Shown: piece after piece, positions 2,818 through 15,600 of the stretch
Position numbering within the stretch: the stretch's first letter is position 1
How the letters are laid out: each line of letters starts with the position of its first letter
Assembly (NCBI GenBank): GCA_024235695.1
Contig: JACKLX010000009.1
Location: 1-64,000, forward strand
Direction of reading: 5' to 3'
Length of the DNA stretch: 64,000 nt
DNA from: Accumulibacter sp.
GTDB lineage: Bacteria; Pseudomonadota; Gammaproteobacteria; Burkholderiales; Rhodocyclaceae
Notes under the pieces: model-generated
The model's input: the letters and a program-made list of their open reading frames with translations, nothing else
Databases searched by the model: none
What the model was told of the DNA's origin: nothing
Translations under genes and position numbers: made by a program

Positions 2818-3255
2818 TAGCCCGAACGAAGAGGGGTTCTGGTGAGCAAACAGGCGGCGCCGTCGTGCGCCGATTCTCCGCGTGGCGTCGAACGCCACTT
2901 CAGATACGCCGGCGTCGCGGCGCATGCCGCATCGGCGACCAGGGGACGGCTGTTCTTTCCCGCTGGCCATGGCGCGTCAATCGATCGCCTCGGAATTCCC
3001 GGAACACGTGGAACGGCACCCGGCTGCGGCAGCCGGACGGGAAGCGGGCAAAGCCGCCATTACCCGTCGCTGGACCCGCCGGAGTTTCGCCCGGCCTGGT
3101 TTCCGCCGCTGCTCCGCTGGCAGCGAACGAGTCCTTGGTCGCCCGGCGTGGTTCCACGGGCGCTCTGTTTCGTATAAAGTACGCTGTTGGGGAAAATCCG
3201 GCCCATCGGGAGTCTCCCGCGGGTCTGGCAAACTTTAGAGAGGGAGGTTGTTCAT
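2818..3255. other. gene-free region upstream of hppA
   Basis: About 440 bases without a convincing gene. Several frames stay open on both strands, but none gives a recognisable protein, has a ribosome binding site, or continues into hppA with family-like sequence. The hppA promoter must lie here. A TATAAAG-like element is visible near 3173, without a good -35 partner. The stretch ends with the hppA ribosome binding site (GAGAGGGAGG, 3237-3249 region). Confidence 0.5.
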
Positions 3256-5685
3256 ATGTCGTCGTATCTGGTGTTCGCGCTGGTATGCGCGGTCATTGCA
3301 GTGCTCTACGGGGCTGCCATGACAAAGTGGATTCTGGCATTGCCAGCTGGCAACCCGCGCATGCAGGAGATTGCCAAGGCAATCCAGGAGGGCGCTTCGG
3401 CCTACCTGGCCAAGCAGTACACCACCATCGCCATCGTCGGTGCGGTGCTCTTCGTGGTGATCTGGCTGGCTCTCGGCAAGGCGATGGCGATCGGCTTCCT
3501 GATCGGCGCCGTGCTCTCGGGCGCTACCGGTTTCATCGGCATGAACGTTTCGGTGCGTGCCAACGTGCGCACCGCCGAAGCGGCGCGCAACGGCATTGCC
3601 GCGGCGCTCGACGTCGCCTTCAAGGGGGGTGCGATCACCGGCATGCTGGTCGTCGGCCTTGGCCTGCTCGGCGTCGCCGGCTACTACGCGGTGCTCAGGG
3701 GTGGCGGTGACTTCCAGCACGCCGTTGAGCCGCTGGTCGGTCTGGCCTTCGGCGGCTCGCTGATCTCGATCTTCGCCCGTCTCGGTGGCGGCATCTTCAC
3801 CAAGGGCGCCGACGTCGGCGCCGACCTGGTTGGCAAGGTCGAGGCGGGAATTCCGGAAGACGACCCACGCAACCCGGCGGTGATTGCCGACAACGTCGGC
3901 GACAACGTCGGCGACTGCGCGGGCATGGCGGCCGACCTCTTCGAGACCTACGCGGTCACCGTGGTGGCGACGATGGTCCTCGGAGCGATGATGCTCAAGG
4001 GCGTTGCCGGTGCCAACGACAACCTGATCGTCTACCCGCTGGTGCTCGGCGGCGTGTCGATCGTCGCCTCGATCATCGGTTGTTTCTTCGTCAAGGCGAG
4101 CGACGGCGGCAAGATCATGAACGCCCTCTATCGTGGACTGGCGGTCGCCGGCGCGCTGGCGCTGGTCGCCTTCTATCCGGTGACGACGATGCTGCTCGGC
4201 GACGGCGTGACGCTCGCCGACGGCAAGCTGATCGGTTCCGGCAGCATCTTCGCCGCTGCCGCGATCGGTCTGGTATTGACCGGACTGCTGGTGTGGATCA
4301 CCGAGTATTACACCGGTACCGACTTCGCACCCGTCAAGCGCGTAGCCCAGGCGTCGACCACCGGTCACGGCACCAACATCATCGCCGGTCTGGCCGTCTC
4401 GATGAAAGCCTGCGCGTTGCCGGTGCTCTCGGTTTGTGCCGCGATCTACATCACCCATGCACTGGCCGGTCTCTACGGTATCGCCATTGCCGCGACCTCG
4501 ATGCTGTCGATGACCGGCATCATCGTCGCGCTCGACGCCTACGGTCCGATCACCGACAACGCCGGTGGTATCGCCGAAATGTCCGGCCTGCCGAAATCGG
4601 TGCGCGACGTGACCGACCCGCTCGACGCGGTCGGCAACACCACCAAGGCGGTGACCAAGGGCTATGCGATCGGCTCTGCCGGTCTCGCTGCGCTGGTGCT
4701 TTTCGCCGACTACACGCATGCCCTGGAAGCCAATTTCGGCGGCAGCCTGCGCTTCGATCTATCCGATCACATGGTGATCATCGGCCTGTTTCTCGGTGGC
4801 CTGATCCCCTACCTCTTCGCCGCCATGGCGATGGAGGCGGTGGGTCGCGCGGCCGGTGCGGTGGTCATCGAGGTGCGTCGGCAGTTCAAGGAAATCAAGG
4901 GCATCATGGAAGGCAAGGCCAAGCCGGACTACTCGCGCGCGGTCGGCATGCTGACCGCCGCAGCGATCCGCGAAATGATCATTCCCTCGCTGCTGCCGGT
5001 GCTGGTGCCGGTGGTGGTCGGCCTGCTGCTCGGCCCGAAGGCGCTGGGTGGCCTGTTGATGGGAACGATCATCACCGGCCTGTTCGTCGCCATTTCGATG
5101 ACCACCGGCGGTGGTGCCTGGGACAACGCCAAGAAATACATCGAGGACGGCAACTTCGGCGGCAAGGGTTCCGAAGCCCACAAGGCGTCGGTGACCGGTG
5201 ATACCGTCGGTGACCCGTACAAGGATACCGCCGGTCCGGCGGTGAACCCGCTGATCAAGATCATCAACATCGTCGCCCTGATGATCGTGCCCCTGATGGT
5301 TCCGGCGGCCGGTGCCAAGCCGATGGCTGCGGCGGCGCCTGCCGCTCCGGTAGCCGCCATGGCGGTCGTCGTGCCGGTGGCGACGGTGTTCTTCGAGGTG
5401 GGGTCGGCGGAACTGCCGGCCGACGCCGGCAAGACGCTCGAGGGTGTCGTCGCCCACGCCAAGTCGCACATGGATGCCAGACTCGGCGTCGCCGGTTTCC
5501 ATGATGCGACCGGCAGCAAGGAAGCCAACGAGGAGATCTCGAAGAATCGCGCGATGGCGGTGGCCACGGCGCTGAAGAATGTCGGCATTGACGAGGCGCG
5601 CATCGAGATGAAGAAGCCGGCGGTGACCACCGGCAGCGGCGACGCCCCCGAGGCGCGCCGGGTCGAGGTGATGGTCATCCAGTAG
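3256..5685 (+). CDS. hppA: K+-independent membrane H+-pyrophosphatase with C-terminal OmpA-like domain
   Basis: 809-residue integral membrane pump coupling pyrophosphate hydrolysis to proton export. The pyrophosphate site [11 protein letters not shown] and the acidic [19 protein letters not shown] block are intact. [10 protein letters not shown] (from residue 460) carries Lys464 where K+-dependent enzymes have Ala, the marker of the K+-independent proton-pumping class. Unusually, the core ends near residue 685. An Ala/Pro linker then leads to about 105 extra residues (705-809) resembling an OmpA/Pal peptidoglycan-binding domain, with Asp750 (GFHD) and Arg765 (KNRA) at the positions that bind diaminopimelate in OmpA. 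ATG 3256 was chosen because GAGGGAGG lies just upstream; an in-frame ATG at 3187 has no such site. Confidence 0.95.
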
Positions 5686-8448: not shown

Positions 8449-8729
8449 CGTGCCGGGGCCGCTGGTGGATTGCTGCTGAAGGTGATGCCCTGCGAAGCGA
8501 GCAATTCCCGCAAGGGGATGTCGTTATCCCTGGCCGCCAGGTCAGCCAGCGACTTGATCAGCGACTGATAGAGCGGTTCCAGCTGCAGGCTCTGCTGGAT
8601 GAACTGGCCGCGGATCGCCAGCTCGTTCTGTTCCTGCCGGTTGCTGCTGAACATCATCGCGTTGACGATCGCCAGCACGAGCGCGAGCGCGCCGAGCAGG
8701 ACCAGGATGCGATGTTGCATGGTGGTCAA
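8445..8729 (-). CDS. small single-pass membrane protein, unknown function (first of pair)
   Basis: 94 residues, not recognised. An N-terminal membrane helix (ILVLLGALALVLAIVNAMMF, about 8-27) leads to a polar helix rich in Gln and Leu and ends with an Ala/Pro tail. The segment ELLASQGITFSSNPPAAP mirrors NALQQRGITINPEAPK of the downstream partner. It lies between the giant PEP-CTERM gene and murJ on the same strand and has its own intergenic space upstream. Confidence 0.75.
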   Translation of the reverse strand: MTTMQHRILVLLGALALVLAIVNAMMFSSNRQEQNELAIRGQFIQQSLQLEPLYQSLIKSLADLAARDNDIPLRELLASQGITFSSNPPAAPAR

Positions 8730-8802
8730 TCGAGTACTCCCGAGAAGATGGTGGGTCGAAACCCCGGGCGAGGGGTCGAAGCGTCGTCGTCAAGACCAGC
8801 GC

Positions 8803-8835
8803 GCAGCGGCTTCCCCGAATCGGGGAAGCCGCTGC
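8803..8835. terminator. hairpin after the PEP-CTERM gene
   Basis: Perfect 15-bp stem (arms 8803-8817 and 8821-8835, loop AAT), ten bases past the stop codon of the giant minus-strand gene. The stem is GC-rich and there is no clear T-run, so the termination strength is uncertain. Position and perfection support a role at the transcript end. Confidence 0.65.
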
Positions 8836-8844
8836 GGCGCTAGT

Positions 8845-11800
8845 TTAGCATTGCGCGCGGCGACGCTGCAGAACGATGATCGCCAGCGCGATGGTCAGCA
8901 GCAGCAGGCTGCCGGGCTCGGGAACCTGGCCGCCGCCGGCCTGCACGCGCGCCTGCACGGTCAGGCGGACGTCGTTGAAGGCGGCGCTGAAGCCGCTGGC
9001 GTTATGGCCGATCGCGGAAAGCACGATGGTGTCGCTGAAGTTGCCGGCGTTGAGCGTATCCAGCGAGATCTGCAGGCCGCTTTGCGAGTCGCCGGCGGTG
9101 AGGTCGGCAAAGGAATCGAAACCGCTCTTCAGGAACTCGTTGAGCGCGAAGCTGTAAGCGCCATCGAGCAGGTCGGCCGGGCCGCTGACGTCGTTGGCGA
9201 GCTGCAGCAAGGCACTGACCATGCCGCTGCCGGCGGTCAGCGTGCCGAAGTCGAGCAGGAAGTCAAAGCCGCCACCGCTCAGCGAACCGCTCCCCGAGGT
9301 CTTGAAGAAGTTCGGGTTGGCGAAATTGTTCACCTGCGCCTGCAGCGTGAGCGCCGCATTGCCGAGCGGGAGGTCGGCCATGTCGGGGTTGTGGCTGGCG
9401 AACTGCAGCTTGTCGCCGCCGCTGCTGAAGACGCCGGCGTTGGCGGTGTCGAGGCTGACCAGCAGGCTGCTGGCGTCGGTCTGGCCGGCGGCAAGACCAC
9501 TGACGCTGCCACTGCCGGCGAATGGCCCGCTCGGCATGTTGATGAAGCTGCCCTTGAGCGTGTCGTTGACAGCGGCTACCGGCGCGCTGTTGCTCACGGA
9601 TACGTTCTTCGCGGCCACCACCTCGCCCTTGTGCACGATGCCGAAATCGACCAGCACCGTATTGACCTGCGCGACGGCCTGCTCGTACACCTTGCCGGCC
9701 AGACTGACCAGCCGGTTGCCGACCGAGACGTCGGCCGCCGCGGTGGTGCCGGCGCCGGTCGATACGAAGTCGAGCTGTGCGTTGCCGGCGAAATTGCCGG
9801 CGGTGGCGGTGTTCAGAGCGACCTGCAGGCTGCTGGCGTCGGTTCCCTGAGCCGCCAGGTTGGCGATCGTGCCGCTCCCCGAGAAACCGGCAGCGACTGG
9901 ACCGAAGCCGGCCTTGAGCCCTTCGGTGAAGGCGTCCGGGCTCTGGTTGCTGACGCTGATCGATGCCGTCGGTGCGGTGTCGCCGCGGCGCGCCACCAGA
10001 TTGACGCTGCCGGTATTGACGCTCGGGTCGGCCAGGCGATAGACATTGCCGCTGACGTTGACCGTCTGCGACGGCAGGTTGGTCGGTGCCAGGCCGCTGG
10101 TGCCGGTGCCGTCGGAGACCAGCGCAATCGTCGCGCTGCCGCTCTTGGCGCCGGCGCTGCTGGTGTCGATGCCGACCTGCAGGCTGCTGCTGTCGGTCGC
10201 CTGCGCCGCCAGCAGGTTGAATGCGCCGCTGGCGGTCACCGGTGCGCCGTTGCTGCTGATGCTGGCGTTGAGTTTCTCCGAGAAGCCGTCGTCGGCGGCA
10301 GTATTGCTGATGCTCAGCGCCTGCTCGGCGGTGGCGCCGATACGGACATTGCCGAAATTGACCGGGTTGGGCGTCGCCGGGCTGGCACTGGCCAGGCGGA
10401 AGACGCTGCCGCTGGTGGAGATGTCGCCGCTGACGCCGATCGTCTGCGAGGCCAGGCTGGTGATGCCAAGGCCGCTGCTGCCGGTGCCGTCGGAGGCGAA
10501 GTTGATCACCTGGGTGCCATTGACGTTGCCGGCGGCGGCGGTATTCAGGCCGACCAGCATGCTGCTGCTGTCGGTAGTGCCGGCGACCAATTGGCTGACG
10601 CTGCCGCTGGTGGTGATGCGCGCGTCGGAACTGGCGCCGAAGCTGGCGTTGAGTTTCTCGGAGAAACTGTCGGCAATGGCGGTGTTGCTGATGCTCAGCG
10701 CCTGCTGCACGGTGTCGCCGACGTGAACGCTGCCGAAGTTGATGGCGGTGAGGGTGTTGGCCGACGCCAGGCGGTAGACGTCGCCACTGACGTTGATCGT
10801 CTGGCTGCCGGCGGCGATCGCTGCCAGGCCGCTGGTGCCGACACCGTCGGAAACGTAGTTGAGCGTCACGCTGCCGCTCCTGCTGCCGGCGCTGCTGGTG
10901 TCGAGGCTGACACTCATGCTGCTGGCGTTGCTGCCGCCGGCCACCAGACCGTTGATGTTGCCACCGTTGTTGCTGGCGGCGCCGGTGTTGCTGCCGAAGC
11001 TGGCGTTGAGTTTCTCGGAGAAGCCGTCGGCAGCGGCGCTGTTCTGGACGCTGAGGATCTGGCTGGCGGTGTCGCCGACGTGGCGATTTCCGAAGGCGAT
11101 CGGCGTCGGCGTGGTCGCGCCTTGCGCCAGGCGATAGACGTCGCCGCTGACGTTGATCGTCTGGCTACCGACACTGGCGGGGCTGAGCCCGTTGCTGACG
11201 CCATTGACCTTGCCCGCGGTTTCGTAGGCCAGTGTCACGGTGCCGGCTTTCGCACCGGCCGAACTGGTGTCGATGTGGGCCGCCATGGTGCTGCTGTTGG
11301 CACTGCCGGCCAGCAGGCCGGTGATGTTGCCGCCACTGATCCCGGCCTGTCCGCTGCTGGCCGAGAAGCTGGCGTTGAGGTCCTCGGAGAAGCTGCCCGC
11401 AGCAGCGGCGTTGCTGACCGTGAAGAACTGCGCCAGGCTGCCACCGACGCGCTGATTGGCGAGTACCAGCGGCGACGGCGTGGCGCTGCCGACGGCCGCG
11501 TTGTAGGCTGCGGCGCCGCCGGCCAGCACGATGTTCAGCTTCTGGTCGGCGATGTTGTTGAAGTTGCTGCGCAGGTTGAGCACCTGGCCGCTGAGCGCCG
11601 CGAGAGCGCCGGCTGTCGCAGCCGTGAAGGTCACGCCGAGGTCGCCGGTATTGCTGCCCGGGCCGCCGGTGTTGTAGTTGCCGGCGCTGACGCCGACGCC
11701 GCTGAGCCGCGCATCGCTCAGGTTGGCGCCATTGACGCTGGTCTGGATGGCGCCGCGCAGCGCCGGGCCGGTGCTGCCGGTGTTGGCGATCTGGTAATTG

Positions 11801-14800
11801 AAGGTGGTCGCGCCGACGCGCACGTTGTTGATCGTCAGCGTCGCGTTCGCCGTCGCGCCGTCGCTCACGCCGGCGCCGGTGATCGCCTGCGCGGCGTTGG
11901 CACCGGCGACGATCAGGCCGGCACCGCTGACACCGGCGCGGCGGTCGAAGCTGTTGCCGCTGCCGGCGGCGACGTTGGTGTAGTCGCTATTGATCGTCAG
12001 GTTCTGCGTGCCGATGTTGAGTGTCGATCCGGCGGCGCCCATCACCAGCCTGCCCTGCGTGTTGGCGGCGTTGGCGAGGGTCATCACGCCGGTCGAATCG
12101 ACCTGCAGCGTACCCGTGCCGGCGACCGCATCCTGGATCAGCAGCGTGCCGTTCTGGGCGCGCATCGTGCCGTTGTTGGTCAGCGCGCTGGTGACGTTGA
12201 CGGTGATCGTGCCGCCACCATCGGCATTGATGGTGCCGTTGTTGGTCAGCGTCGCGGCGCCACCGGCGAAAGCCTGCTGACCGATGTGGCCGGTTTGTCC
12301 GCGTACCGTCACGCCGCTGTCAATGACCAGGTTGCCCGCCTCGACGTTGAGGCGATTGCTGGCGTTGCCGTCGGCGAAGACGATGCTGCCCGTACCGGCA
12401 ATGGTCTGGTTGCCCTGCGGCGCCAGAACACTGCCGCTGGCGATGTTGATCGTGCCGTTGAGCGTCATGCCGCCGGCGGATATGCGCTCGACGCCGGTAG
12501 CCGTCGCCAGGTCGAGGACGCCATTCAGGGTGACGCCGTTGAGGAAGTTGTTGCCGCTGTTGCTGGCCACGAACGTGCCGTTGCCGTTGCTGTTCAGCGT
12601 TCCACCGGTGACCGTGGCGCTGTTGAAGAATACCGTGCTGCCGGTGTCTGCGCGCAAGATGCCGGCGCTATTGTCGTAGCCGCCGCCCGCATTCAGCGTC
12701 AACTGGGCGCCGTTGCGGGCTTCCATGACGTTCTGGTTGATCACCTGCCCGTTGACGCCGAGCGCGATGCTGCGACCAGCGACGTCGGCCGAGATCAGGC
12801 CCTGGTTGGTCAGCGTCGCGGCGCCGCCGGCGAAAGCCTGCTGGCCGATGATGCCGTTGCCGCCGCGCACCGTGACGCCCGAGGCCAGGGTCAGGTTGCC
12901 GGCCTCGACGTTGAGCCGGTTGTTGCCGCTGGCGTCGGCAAAGACGATGGTGCCGGTGCCGGAAATCGTCTGATCGCCCTGTGGCGCCAGAACGCTGCTG
13001 TTGCCGATGTTGATCGTCGCGCCATTGAGTATCAGGCCGCTGGTGATCCGTTCGACGCCGGCGGCAGAGGCCAGGTCGAGCGTTCCCGAGAGCTTGACAC
13101 CGCTGAGGACGTTGCTGCCGCTGTTGCTGGCGCGGAACGATCCCGCGCCGGTGAGGTTCATGTCGCCGCTGATCGTCACGCCGTTCTGCGCCACGACGCT
13201 GCCCGCGCCAGCGAGGATCTGGCTGCCGGTGTTGCCGGTGACCGACGAGTTGAGGTTGAGCGTACCGCCGTTGAGCGCCGCCAGGGTGCCGTTGTTGGTC
13301 GTCAGACCGTTGACCGCAAGGGTGATCGCGCCACCGCCGACGTCGGCCTGGATGGTGCCGTTATTGGTCAGGGTTGCGGCACCGCCAGCGAAGCTCTGGT
13401 TGCCGATGCGGCCGCTTTCGCCGCGCACGGTGACGCCGCTGGCGAGGATCAGGTTGCCGGCCTCGACGTTCAGCCGGTTGTTGGCGTTGCCGTCGGCAAA
13501 GACGATGGTGCCGTTGCCGGCGATGGTCTGGTCGCCCTGCGGCGCGAGGACGCTCGCCTGGGCGATATTGACTGTCGCGCTGTTCAACGTCAGTCCGCCG
13601 ACCACCCGCTCGACGCCAGTGGCGCTCGCCAGATCGAGGGTGCCGGCGAAATCGACGCCACTGAAGACGTTGTTGCCGTTGTTGGCAGCGCGAAACGATC
13701 CCGTGCCGCTGGTGTTGACCACGCCGCTGATGGTGACGCCGTTCTGCGCCACGACGCTGCCGTTGCCGGCCAGGATCTGGCTGCCGACGTTGCCCTGGAC
13801 GTTGGAGTTGAGGTTGAGCGTGCCGCCGTTGAGCGCCGCCAGGGTGCCGTTGTTGGTCGTCAGCCCCTGCACTGCGATGGTGATCGCGCCGCCGGAGACG
13901 TCGGCCTGGATGGCGCCGTTGTTGGTCAGCGTTGCGGCACCGCCGGCGAAAGCCTGCTGACCGATGTGGCCGGTTTGTCCGCGCACCGTGATACCGCTGT
14001 CCAGGATCAGGTTGCCGGCCTCGACGTTCAGCCGGTTGTTGGCGTTGCCGTCGGCAAAGACGATCGTGCCGCTGCCGCCAATGGTCTGGTTACCCTGCGG
14101 CGCAACGATGCTGGCGTTGCCGATGTTGATCGTGCCGTTGAGGGTCATGCCGCCGGCCGAGATGCGCTCGACGCCGGTAGCCGTGGCCATGTCGAGAACG
14201 CCGTTCAGGGTGCTGCCGTTGAGGAAGTTGTTGGCGTTGTTGGCGGCGACGAACTTGCCGCTGCCATTGCTGTTCAGTACGCCGCCGCTGACCGCCGTGC
14301 CGTTGAACAGAACGGTGCTGCCGACGTCGGCGAGCAGGGTGCCGGCGGAATTGTCGTAGCCGCCGCCGGCATTCAGCGTCAGCTGACCGCCGTTCTGCGC
14401 GCGCATCGTCCCCTGGTTGGTGACCAGCCCGTTGACCGCCATGGTGATCGTTCCGCCGCTCACGTCGGCCGAGATGACGCCCATGTTGGTCAGTGTCGCC
14501 GCACCGCCGGCAAAGCTCTGGTTGCCCACCCGGCCCGTTTCGCCGCGCAGGGTGATGCCGCTGCCGAGGACCAGGTTGCCGGCCTCGACGTTCAGCCGGT
14601 TGCTGGCGTTGCCATCGCTGAAGACGATGCTGCCGGCGCCGCCAATGGTCTGGTCACCCTGTGGCGCCAGGATGCTGGCGCTACCGATCCTGGCCGTGCC
14701 GTTCAGCGTCATCCCGTTGGCGACGCGTTCGACGCTGGTGTTGCTGGCCAGATCGAGCGTGCCGTTGAGTGTGACATTGCTGAGGAAGTTGTTGCTGTTA

Positions 14801-15306
14801 TTGAACGCCACCAGCGCGCCGCTGCTGGCGGTAGCGATCGTGCCGCCAGTGATCGAACTGCCGAACTGATTGACTACGCTGCCGTCGGCGATGTTGATCG
14901 TGCCGCCGGTGTTGTTGATGTTGTGGCCGGCGGACACGCCGATATTGGCCGTCGAGGCACCGCCGACGTTGATGACGCCGCTGTTGGTGGTGCTGCCTCC
15001 GCCGACCAGGTTGAGGCCGAAGGCGTCGATGGTGATCTGGCCAGTGTTGTTGAGCGTCAGGATGGACTGCCCGGTGTTGATCGTAACCACGCCACTGGCA
15101 CCGATATTGGCGGTGTCGTTGCTGCCGGGGGTGGCCGCCGGATTGCCATTGCCCAGGGCGCAGCTCGTCCAGTCGGACGGCGTTGCCCAGTTGCCGGTCG
15201 TGACATTCCACGTGCAATTCGCGGCGAGAGCCTGGTGTGCCGGGAAGGCGAGCAGGATGGCGAGCAGGCTTGGCTTGAGTGCCAAGGTCGGACGGCGGGC
15301 GGGCAT
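8845..15306 (-). CDS. giant repeat-containing secreted protein with PEP-CTERM sorting signal
   Basis: 2153-residue predicted surface protein. A signal peptide (about residues 1-29, ending in HQALA) opens the protein. The N-terminal half holds five similar blocks of about 187 residues, each with the motifs GVER, APQG(D/N)QTI, NRLNVEAGNL and AGGAATLTN, of the autotransporter-like beta-helix type. The second half has several repeats of about 120 residues with FGNVRIGATAEQALSISN-like cores, resembling 'choice-of-anchor' Ig-like domains. The C-terminus is VPEPGSLLLLTIALAI followed by an Arg-rich tail: a textbook PEP-CTERM signal recognised by exosortase. ATG 15306 follows AGGAGA; an upstream in-frame start would precede the signal peptide with charged sequence. 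An equally long open frame exists antisense but is a composition artefact. Confidence 0.92.
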   Translation of the reverse strand: MPARRPTLALKPSLLAILLAFPAHQALAANCTWNVTTGNWATPSDWTSCALGNGNPAATPGSNDTANIGASGVVTINTGQSILTLNNTGQITIDAFGLNLVGGGSTTNSGVINVGGASTANIGVSAGHNINNTGGTINIADGSVVNQFGSSITGGTIATASSGALVAFNNSNNFLSNVTLNGTLDLASNTSVERVANGMTLNGTARIGSASILAPQGDQTIGGAGSIVFSDGNASNRLNVEAGNLVLGSGITLRGETGRVGNQSFAGGAATLTNMGVISADVSGGTITMAVNGLVTNQGTMRAQNGGQLTLNAGGGYDNSAGTLLADVGSTVLFNGTAVSGGVLNSNGSGKFVAANNANNFLNGSTLNGVLDMATATGVERISAGGMTLNGTINIGNASIVAPQGNQTIGGSGTIVFADGNANNRLNVEAGNLILDSGITVRGQTGHIGQQAFAGGAATLTNNGAIQADVSGGAITIAVQGLTTNNGTLAALNGGTLNLNSNVQGNVGSQILAGNGSVVAQNGVTISGVVNTSGTGSFRAANNGNNVFSGVDFAGTLDLASATGVERVVGGLTLNSATVNIAQASVLAPQGDQTIAGNGTIVFADGNANNRLNVEAGNLILASGVTVRGESGRIGNQSFAGGAATLTNNGTIQADVGGGAITLAVNGLTTNNGTLAALNGGTLNLNSSVTGNTGSQILAGAGSVVAQNGVTISGDMNLTGAGSFRASNSGSNVLSGVKLSGTLDLASAAGVERITSGLILNGATINIGNSSVLAPQGDQTISGTGTIVFADASGNNRLNVEAGNLTLASGVTVRGGNGIIGQQAFAGGAATLTNQGLISADVAGRSIALGVNGQVINQNVMEARNGAQLTLNAGGGYDNSAGILRADTGSTVFFNSATVTGGTLNSNGNGTFVASNSGNNFLNGVTLNGVLDLATATGVERISAGGMTLNGTINIASGSVLAPQGNQTIAGTGSIVFADGNASNRLNVEAGNLVIDSGVTVRGQTGHIGQQAFAGGAATLTNNGTINADGGGTITVNVTSALTNNGTMRAQNGTLLIQDAVAGTGTLQVDSTGVMTLANAANTQGRLVMGAAGSTLNIGTQNLTINSDYTNVAAGSGNSFDRRAGVSGAGLIVAGANAAQAITGAGVSDGATANATLTINNVRVGATTFNYQIANTGSTGPALRGAIQTSVNGANLSDARLSGVGVSAGNYNTGGPGSNTGDLGVTFTAATAGALAALSGQVLNLRSNFNNIADQKLNIVLAGGAAAYNAAVGSATPSPLVLANQRVGGSLAQFFTVSNAAAAGSFSEDLNASFSASSGQAGISGGNITGLLAGSANSSTMAAHIDTSSAGAKAGTVTLAYETAGKVNGVSNGLSPASVGSQTINVSGDVYRLAQGATTPTPIAFGNRHVGDTASQILSVQNSAAADGFSEKLNASFGSNTGAASNNGGNINGLVAGGSNASSMSVSLDTSSAGSRSGSVTLNYVSDGVGTSGLAAIAAGSQTINVSGDVYRLASANTLTAINFGSVHVGDTVQQALSISNTAIADSFSEKLNASFGASSDARITTSGSVSQLVAGTTDSSSMLVGLNTAAAGNVNGTQVINFASDGTGSSGLGITSLASQTIGVSGDISTSGSVFRLASASPATPNPVNFGNVRIGATAEQALSISNTAADDGFSEKLNASISSNGAPVTASGAFNLLAAQATDSSSLQVGIDTSSAGAKSGSATIALVSDGTGTSGLAPTNLPSQTVNVSGNVYRLADPSVNTGSVNLVARRGDTAPTASISVSNQSPDAFTEGLKAGFGPVAAGFSGSGTIANLAAQGTDASSLQVALNTATAGNFAGNAQLDFVSTGAGTTAAADVSVGNRLVSLAGKVYEQAVAQVNTVLVDFGIVHKGEVVAAKNVSVSNSAPVAAVNDTLKGSFINMPSGPFAGSGSVSGLAAGQTDASSLLVSLDTANAGVFSSGGDKLQFASHNPDMADLPLGNAALTLQAQVNNFANPNFFKTSGSGSLSGGGFDFLLDFGTLTAGSGMVSALLQLANDVSGPADLLDGAYSFALNEFLKSGFDSFADLTAGDSQSGLQISLDTLNAGNFSDTIVLSAIGHNASGFSAAFNDVRLTVQARVQAGGGQVPEPGSLLLLTIALAIIVLQRRRAQC
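9500..11500. repeat. degenerate tandem repeats (choice-of-anchor-like blocks), about 357-381 bp period
   Basis: The marker GTTGAG-TTTCTC recurs near 10267, 10648, 11005 and 11374 (spacings 381, 357 and 369 bases), with more diverged copies toward 9500. All are in frame in the giant gene and encode the ...FSEKLNASFG... module. Confidence 0.75.
12180..14800. repeat. five tandem direct repeats of about 561 bp inside the PEP-CTERM gene
   Basis: The block starting GTTGGTCAG recurs near 12241, 12805, 13363, 13921 and 14485, a spacing alternating 564 and 558 bases (188 or 186 codons). Copies 1 and 4 are almost identical over at least 60 bases. Period in multiples of three keeps the frame open on copy-number change. 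Confidence 0.85.
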
Positions 15307-15600
15307 GGGATGTCTCCTCTGATGACGGACGGAACGCCGACAACGCTTGGCGTCGGGCGGCAACATGAAGCAGGCTGATGTCACTGCCGAAGCAAGTCTT
15401 GTGCCGGTCCGCAAGCGTGCCTTTCCGCGCGGTGGCTTGCGTCGTTTTATCAGGAGCTTGCCGAAATGGCCGGGCGGCGCGTCGGACACCGGTCGACCAG
15501 CGGCGTCACCGCGCTGCGGCAGACTGTAAAGCGCCGGTATGATGCACTTGCATCATCGCTGACAGTAGCGGTCATTGGCGGACGATCTTTTTCGTGCAGA
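15307..15600. promoter_or_regulatory. divergent promoter region between PEP-CTERM gene and LuxR-type regulator
   Basis: 294 bases without a gene separate two divergently transcribed genes. The clearest element is the perfect 18-bp dyad at 15539-15556 listed separately; a TATGAT sequence at 15538-15543 overlaps it and could be a -10 box for the regulator. I see no well-spaced -35 box. Confidence 0.55.
15539..15556. promoter_or_regulatory. 18-bp perfect dyad, candidate operator of the LuxR-type regulator
   Basis: ATGATGCA-CT-TGCATCAT is a perfect inverted repeat (8-bp arms, 2-base centre), 45 bases upstream of the regulator start and overlapping a TATGAT box. Size and symmetry fit a dimeric helix-turn-helix regulator. 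Binding by the adjacent regulator is inference. Confidence 0.5.

Follow-up and report, generated by a model that had tools for sequence, protein, structure and literature searches.

The locus described here raises the question of why an H+-pyrophosphatase (H+-PPase) of Candidatus Accumulibacter, an organism that drives phosphorus removal in wastewater treatment and whose energetics presumably depend on pyrophosphate and polyphosphate, carries an OmpA-like domain at its C-terminus, and of how widely this domain is shared with other membrane machines. In the usual picture, the respiratory and pyrophosphate-driven pumps of bacteria diffuse within the inner membrane. The gene lies in a stretch of 64,000 nucleotides from contig JACKLX010000009.1, which is referred to below as the window.

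The fusion gene

The pump and the OmpA-like domain are encoded in one chain by a single open reading frame with an ATG start (Table 1). The Pfam model H_PPase was matched over its whole length (1-645 of 645, E 6.5e-269), and the NCBIfam model NF001951 was matched at 1185 bits against 859. The catalytic motifs of the pump are present (one at residue 186, DNAGG at 434, GNTTKA with Lys464, and GGAWDNAKK at 619); their meanings were taken from the family rule, under which we assume that lysine at position 464 is the signature of a K+-independent pump. As judged from its motifs, the protein is an H+-PPase of the K+-independent type, and pyrophosphate-driven H+ transport is predicted.

The profile search of the tail that the first-pass annotation had proposed returned the Pfam OmpA model at 47.6 bits (E 2.1e-12), above the gathering cut-off of 27.2, and the isolated tail scored 52.2 bits. 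The tail was also matched by NCBIfam OmpA-like models, with YiaD first and every one under its own equivalog cut-off, while its top PDB matches were OmpA-like chains (9uu2, E 1e-8; YiaD 2k1s, E 3.7e-8); among the matches listed, no PDB chain spanned the pump and the tail jointly. Homology of the tail to the OmpA domain is regarded as solid on the basis of these profiles. The same annotation had placed Lys464 in the pump and Asp750 and Arg765 in an OmpA context, and had estimated that the chain continues approximately 105 residues past its usual end; all three residues were found as described, the latter two 15 residues apart, and the estimate was about right because the last transmembrane helix (TM) ends near residue 683 and is followed by a linker of approximately 25 aa and a domain of approximately 100 aa.

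Table 1. Features of the fusion gene, with positions in the window
Feature	Position	Strand	Basis
Shine-Dalgarno-like GAGGGAGG	3240..3247	+	sequence; precedes the ATG at 3256
hppA-ompA fusion gene, 809 aa	3256..5685	+	open reading frame; same fused gene in 26 other genomes of the genus
H+-pyrophosphatase core, residues 13-677	3292..5286	+	Pfam H_PPase
Lys464 codon (GNTTKA)	4645..4647	+	sequence motif
Last conserved catalytic loop, residues 619-663	5110..5244	+	sequence; GGAWDNAKK at 619
Last transmembrane helix, residues 664-683	5245..5304	+	sequence; hydropathy 2.1
Ala/Pro/Val-rich linker, residues about 684-708	5305..5379	+	linker comparison
OmpA-like domain, residues about 709-809	5380..5682	+	Pfam OmpA, residues 712-785; subfamily profile A3 at 5374-5676, 138.2 bits
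Asp750 codon, predicted diaminopimelate contact	5503..5505	+	sequence; subfamily conservation
Arg765 codon, predicted diaminopimelate contact	5548..5550	+	sequence; subfamily conservation

Elsewhere in the window, an open reading frame of 2214 aa on the minus strand (8845-15489) ends in a PEP-CTERM-like tail (VPEPGSLLLL..RRRAQC), and an open frame of 2259 aa on the opposite strand (8599-15378, +) covers nearly the same stretch.

Distribution of the fused pump

The host genome (3.83 Mb, 83.7% complete) contains one pump according to the family search. A survey of H+-PPases for the same fusion, which had also been suggested in the first-pass annotation, detected the fused gene in 27 of the 28 Candidatus Accumulibacter genomes, including that of the host; in the 28th (G006), the pump match covers residues 1-562 and stops at a contig edge. 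Since the fused gene is present in 26 further genomes of the genus at 87-92% identity, an assembly error or read-through artefact was ruled out. The pump and the domain were matched as separate pieces within one open frame in G011 and G015, and the initial residues of the latter are in a different frame, so that its gene does not become open until approximately residue 28. Seven genomes of the genus additionally contain another pump, which is only distantly related (31-34% identity).

Outside the genus, a sample of 249 genomes of the family yielded the full profile in six (G814, G834, G812, G976, G854, and G959), nearly the whole profile in G826, and a fragment in G926. At least 24 fused pumps were detected in 399 genomes of the order, roughly 256 of which, by a hand count, have a match of pump strength; thus, most H+-PPases of the order have no OmpA domain. 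When 369 genomes of the class were sampled, the whole tail profile was matched, among the matches listed, only in the host's own genome (298 bits), with the next-best match being on the pump part (168 bits). Named carriers are Methylibium rhizosphaerae, Variovorax sp. J22P240, Glaciimonas soli, Lysobacter sp. Root916, and the metagenome-assembled genome SZAS-56, and the OmpA model was matched in all 28 fused pump tails that were scanned, with E-values of up to 0.001.

The first-pass annotation regarded the arrangement as potentially new; however, an H+-PPase fused to an OmpA-like domain is already known. The excerpted text of a report from 2024 (PeerJ; PMC11210485) describes the pump A0A0U2VTE8 of Paucibacter sp. 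KCTC 42545, a protein of 810 aa with a C-terminal OmpA-like domain of 110 residues that has the same architecture and size as the window pump. In the same excerpts, the Paucibacter pump is predicted to be K+-insensitive, its BLAST relatives are given in Table 2 and further bacteria in the legend of Fig. S4, and the role of the OmpA-like domain is stated as one that "remains to be elucidated". Compared with that text, the subfamily, the other partners, the binding residues, and a mechanism are found only in the present analysis.

The OmpA-like subfamily and its partners

When close relatives of the domain were traced, it was also detected on CcoP (L180, with FixP_N, cytochrome, and OmpA domains) and on PufC (L181, with CytoC_RC and OmpA). 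A domain alignment of 21 rows from HppA, CcoP, PufC, and single-TM members (profile A3) was searched over the 399 genomes of the order. The number of candidates scored per genome was at most 2 in the count of order genomes with a pump, 8 in the class sample of 369, 12 in the family sample and in the A3 search of the order, 17 in the class set of 274, and 24 in the phylum set, and member counts are, therefore, lower bounds. With at most 12 candidates per genome, at least 83 members were found in 59 of the 399 genomes, all at 92.2 bits or more, while the next match was at 73.2 bits and rows from there on were mostly in frames of approximately 200-400 aa; this gap rules out that any OmpA relative scores alike. 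Among 274 genomes of the class, a single one outside the order (G631) reached 105.7 bits, on a single-TM protein in which four Ig-like repeats precede the domain, and other matches outside the order were at 77.3 bits or less, while among 200 genomes of the phylum, scores above 92 bits occurred only in genomes of the same order. The OmpA subfamily of the domain is sharply delimited and nearly confined to one order, the Burkholderiales; in addition to G631, Lysobacter sp. Root916 is a carrier that departs from this rule.

The partners of the members, which number at least 83, are HppA in 24 cases, a single TM in 23, CoxB in 10, PufC in 8, DUF937 in 5, a BON-like protein in 4, CcoP and an RND adaptor in 3 each, and AmtB, a cytochrome, and an unassigned partner in 1 each; these labels derive from BLAST to representatives and Pfam on the representatives rather than from Pfam on all 83. 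Among 131 labelled rows, 14 had no BLAST label, two of which were assigned via Pfam (L225 and L245) and eleven by reading the N-terminus, with L257 remaining unassigned. The CoxB, MFP, DUF937, BON, AmtB, and CytC partners were all found by A3 and absent from the set used to build it. Pfam confirmed on representatives the combinations FixP_N, cytochrome c, and OmpA; CytoC_RC and OmpA; COX2 and OmpA; HlyD_D23 and OmpA; DUF937 and OmpA; and OmpA and Ammonium_transp, while the BON match on the BON-like representatives was weak.

In the fusions of CoxB, subunit II of cytochrome c oxidase (L213, L217, L222, L229, L231, L238, L251, L258, L260, and L266), COX2 and cytochrome c are followed by the OmpA module. 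The module is C-terminal on PufC, the cytochrome of the photosynthetic reaction centre (L181, L241, L243, L248, L249, L250, L262, and L270, the last with Ser in place of the Asp of the module), on CcoP of the cbb3 oxidase (L180:2054-3340, from the window's own family and outside the 399-genome sample, L235:1413-2762, L271:2339-3760, and L272:2384-3799), and on RND-type membrane-fusion proteins, which are efflux adaptors (L273:1366-3042, L275:1393-3741, and L277:1435-2490). In the cytochrome fusion, a further cytochrome domain follows the module. The single AmtB fusion (L225:1240-3171; the same gene is in L278) has a signal-like N-terminus, and OmpA occupies residues 93-177 of its open frame, ahead of the transporter. 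In L257:1954-3832, the OmpA module and a CoxB-like frame are in different frames that overlap at the linker, and a CoxA-like frame, assigned by reading, is next; the probable explanation is a frame-shifted CoxB fusion, due either to a real break or to a sequencing error. Among the small single-helix members (L183-L187, L206, L218, L219, L221, and others), many open with an acidic MSxxDDDSQ-like tail. A lipobox-like motif was found in 0 of 31 stand-alone members, which speaks against their being lipoproteins, and no cox or cco operon was seen beside five of them (L182-L185 and L187) in the translations and in Pfam searches of six frames of their partial flanks.

A raw count places 33 of the 83 members on no named energy or transport partner. 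In G161, G234, and G264, the module is on an H+-PPase, CoxB, and a BON-like protein all together, in keeping with a shared anchor. More than one member occurs in 17 of the 59 member-bearing genomes, often on different complexes, which is in line with the main rival to wall binding, namely, a protein-protein scaffold in which OmpA-like dimerisation would cluster module-bearing pumps, oxidases, and single-TM anchors without the wall, with the single-TM members potentially serving as docking partners; however, the other 42 genomes show only one member.

The putative peptidoglycan-binding site

Evidence of a different type was obtained from the residues of the module. Across the subfamily, 128 of 130 distinct domains have Asp at the position of Asp750 and all 130 have Arg at that of Arg765, a conservation that is partly due to selection because the domains were picked by a profile containing both residues. 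The spacing of 15 between these residues equals that between Asp271 and Arg286 in OmpA of Acinetobacter baumannii, which are diaminopimelate contacts according to the excerpted text of PMC5974059. The same excerpts describe the C-domain of PA0833 as binding insoluble peptidoglycan and as a dimer in solution, and the PDB neighbours of the A3 profile include Pal, YiaD, and PA0833, with the PA0833 entry being among the best. The dimeric state of this OmpA C-like protein is a further point for a scaffold, whereas the near invariance of both diaminopimelate residues, which scaffolding alone would not need, is a point against it, and we regard a scaffold without the wall as unlikely.

The subfamily also has features of its own. 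Asn758 is kept in 126 of the 130 domains and His749, which corresponds to Thr in the aligned PDB relatives, in 88, while the Asn of the NRRVE motif is replaced throughout (Ala in 112, Gly in 11, and Ser in 7; the window domain reads ARR) and the loop ahead of this NRR-type motif is approximately 5 residues shorter than in five aligned PDB relatives. The window domain thus lacks the NRR and the full last loop that serve as membership features, neither of which is required for membership of the Pfam family. By profile and by structure, YiaD, Pal, and PA0833 come closest to the window domain; all three show a canonical NRR motif and a last loop of greater length, whereas the subfamily has neither, and its stand-alone members differ from these three in their consistent lack of a lipobox-like motif. 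Wall binding by the window domain may be expected by analogy with the proven binders, and the retention of Asp and Arg together with this homology makes wall tethering of the pump plausible.

Membrane topology and the linker

The side of the membrane on which the domain lies bears directly on this reading. The loop at residues 619-663 of the window pump is presumably cytoplasmic, as is known for the family; the last catalytic loop being cytoplasmic and followed by one TM, the tail should be periplasmic. We also take the module-bearing ends of CoxB, CcoP, PufC, and the RND adaptors and the N-terminus of AmtB to be periplasmic; partners whose C-terminus is outside have the module at that end, and the single AmtB fusion has it at the N-terminus, behind a signal-like sequence. 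From these two lines, namely, one TM past the catalytic loop and the established topology of the partners, we infer with considerable confidence that the domain is periplasmic, as the first-pass annotation had claimed for the C-terminus.

An alternative is that the linker forms a 17th transmembrane helix, which would make the domain cytoplasmic. The linkers of 60 fused pumps are 14-99 aa long (median 27) and consist of 42% Ala and 15% Pro. The best 19-residue hydropathy exceeded 1.9 in 3 of the 60, one of which is the window's own linker at 1.91, a value that resembles that of its last TM, but was less than 1.6 in 51, and some linkers are long and polar, such as that of L117, in which 22 of 82 residues are from the set DEKRNQH. 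Therefore, the pump linker is not a conserved helix. The charge distribution of the single-TM members leans towards the alternative: Lys and Arg are more numerous after than before the helix in 16 of 31, fewer in 8, and equal in 7, so that the positive-inside rule would read the C-terminus as inside for half of them, which is a poor fit to a periplasmic placement. Considering this together with the presence of the same subfamily on partner ends that we assume to be periplasmic, we regard a 17th helix with a cytoplasmic domain as extremely unlikely. A near-repetitive pump linker of approximately 100 aa, with repeats of the VVAAAPAT type, was observed in one Accumulibacter genome (G011; L027:994-1794).

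If extended, a linker of the median 27 aa is estimated to span approximately 70-80 Angstrom, and its reach to the wall would be marginal. The shortness of the linker that joins the domain to the last helix in the window's pump may also be taken as a sign of a regulatory sensor, which would alter pump activity according to the state of the wall or envelope. This possibility, raised in the first-pass annotation as the sensing of wall stress, gained no support: an Ala/Pro-rich linker of such variable length is better suited to tethering than to the transmission of a signal, the partners are from unrelated families, and a sensor is considered to be very unlikely.

Gain, loss, and movement of the module

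The history of the module was assessed on two trees. On the domain tree (111 rows with one gene present twice, 105 columns, a quick method without bootstrap), the partner label changes 24 times against a shuffled mean of 59.7, with few of the changes being forced by starred branches. In one clade with an SH-aLRT value of 100, modules of CcoP and DUF937 from a single bacterial family are intermingled, which points to a transfer of the module from one gene to another there, and the pump fusions may be of single origin on this tree. On the pump-core tree (FastTree, 149 rows), the fused state changes 15 times, and all 15 changes are forced by starred branches; when three pumps cut by contig ends were included as unfused (152 rows), 13 of 15 changes were forced. 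The starred branches of FastTree deserve less trust, and the changes are gains or losses to which no direction was assigned. The pump fusion has been repeatedly gained or lost. In Lysobacter sp. Root916, the module is on a pump core that nests in the Lysobacteraceae and shares 92% identity with a Lysobacter pump that has no fusion. Four pumps have an Ala/Pro tail and no domain (L075, L087, L091, and L135), and may be remnants or precursors of fusions. Spread on plasmids was also considered and rejected, with no match in PLSDB for the domain of the window (E 1e-10) or for one from CoxB (E 1e-12).

The repeated gain or loss and the domainless Ala/Pro-tailed pumps would also be expected of a dispensable appendage that is under weak constraint, has no binding role of its own, is spread by recombination, and is often lost. 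Two observations within the genus point in the same direction: the median pairwise dN/dS of the 27 Accumulibacter genes is 0.064 for the core, 0.26 for the linker, and 0.20 for the domain, approximately three times that of the core, and the Gly and Asn of the motif are lost in 4 of the 27 domains (L024, L025, L026, and L028). However, Asp and Arg are retained in these four domains as they are across partners and families, the domain is missing from no Accumulibacter genome other than the one cut at a contig end, and a dN/dS of about 0.20 still reflects clear purifying selection, under which the domain is in Accumulibacter. A dispensable appendage is, therefore, considered to be distinctly unlikely.

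Proposed role of the module

The best reading of these findings is that the module is mobile and anchors inner-membrane complexes to peptidoglycan from the periplasm; by the raw partner counts in the subfamily, these complexes are largely energy-transducing. For the window pump, we consider it moderately probable that the C-terminal domain tethers the pump to peptidoglycan as one member of a mobile subfamily on the periplasmic ends of inner-membrane machines. The C-terminus would exit the last helix on the periplasmic side and continue through a flexible Ala/Pro linker into the OmpA-like domain, which would grip meso-diaminopimelate in peptidoglycan via Asp750 and Arg765. H+-PPases are homodimers, and two domains per dimer would hold the pump to the wall. 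Such tethering would limit the diffusion of the pump and fix its position, and may be of some benefit to the cell. In the corresponding scheme for the order, bacteria of the Burkholderiales would have repeatedly fitted the module to machines of the inner membrane at their periplasmic end, namely, to the H+-PPase, CoxB of the aa3-type oxidase, CcoP of the cbb3 oxidase, photosynthetic PufC, an ammonium transporter, RND adaptors, and anchors with a single TM. A more general proposal, in which one mobile OmpA subfamily is the general wall anchor of the energy-transducing machinery of the Burkholderiales (proton pumps, two types of terminal oxidase, the photosynthetic reaction centre, efflux adaptors, and a transporter) and pins power-generating complexes at fixed places, possibly together, is put forward tentatively and with more doubt than conviction.

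Precedents for this type of anchoring are presumably MotB, PomB, and the long form of TssL, which we take to be stator and secretion proteins of the inner membrane whose OmpA-like domain lies in the periplasm and attaches a machine to the wall. The likeness lies in the combination of an inner-membrane protein with such a domain; in contrast, the partner in the present case is a primary pump, an oxidase, or a transporter, the linker is short, and the domain is from a subfamily of its own in which the Asn of NRRVE is lacking. MotB, PomB, and TssL-type NCBIfam profiles matched the window tail weakly. One OmpA subfamily on many partners was not found in the open-licence PMC literature on OmpA with a pump, cytochrome c oxidase, or CcoP, and the wider pattern of one OmpA subfamily across several membrane machines is apparently new in print. 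Should several pumps indeed share one module for wall binding, the deletion of a single small domain would offer a direct test of how energy conversion is organised in space in a large order of bacteria.
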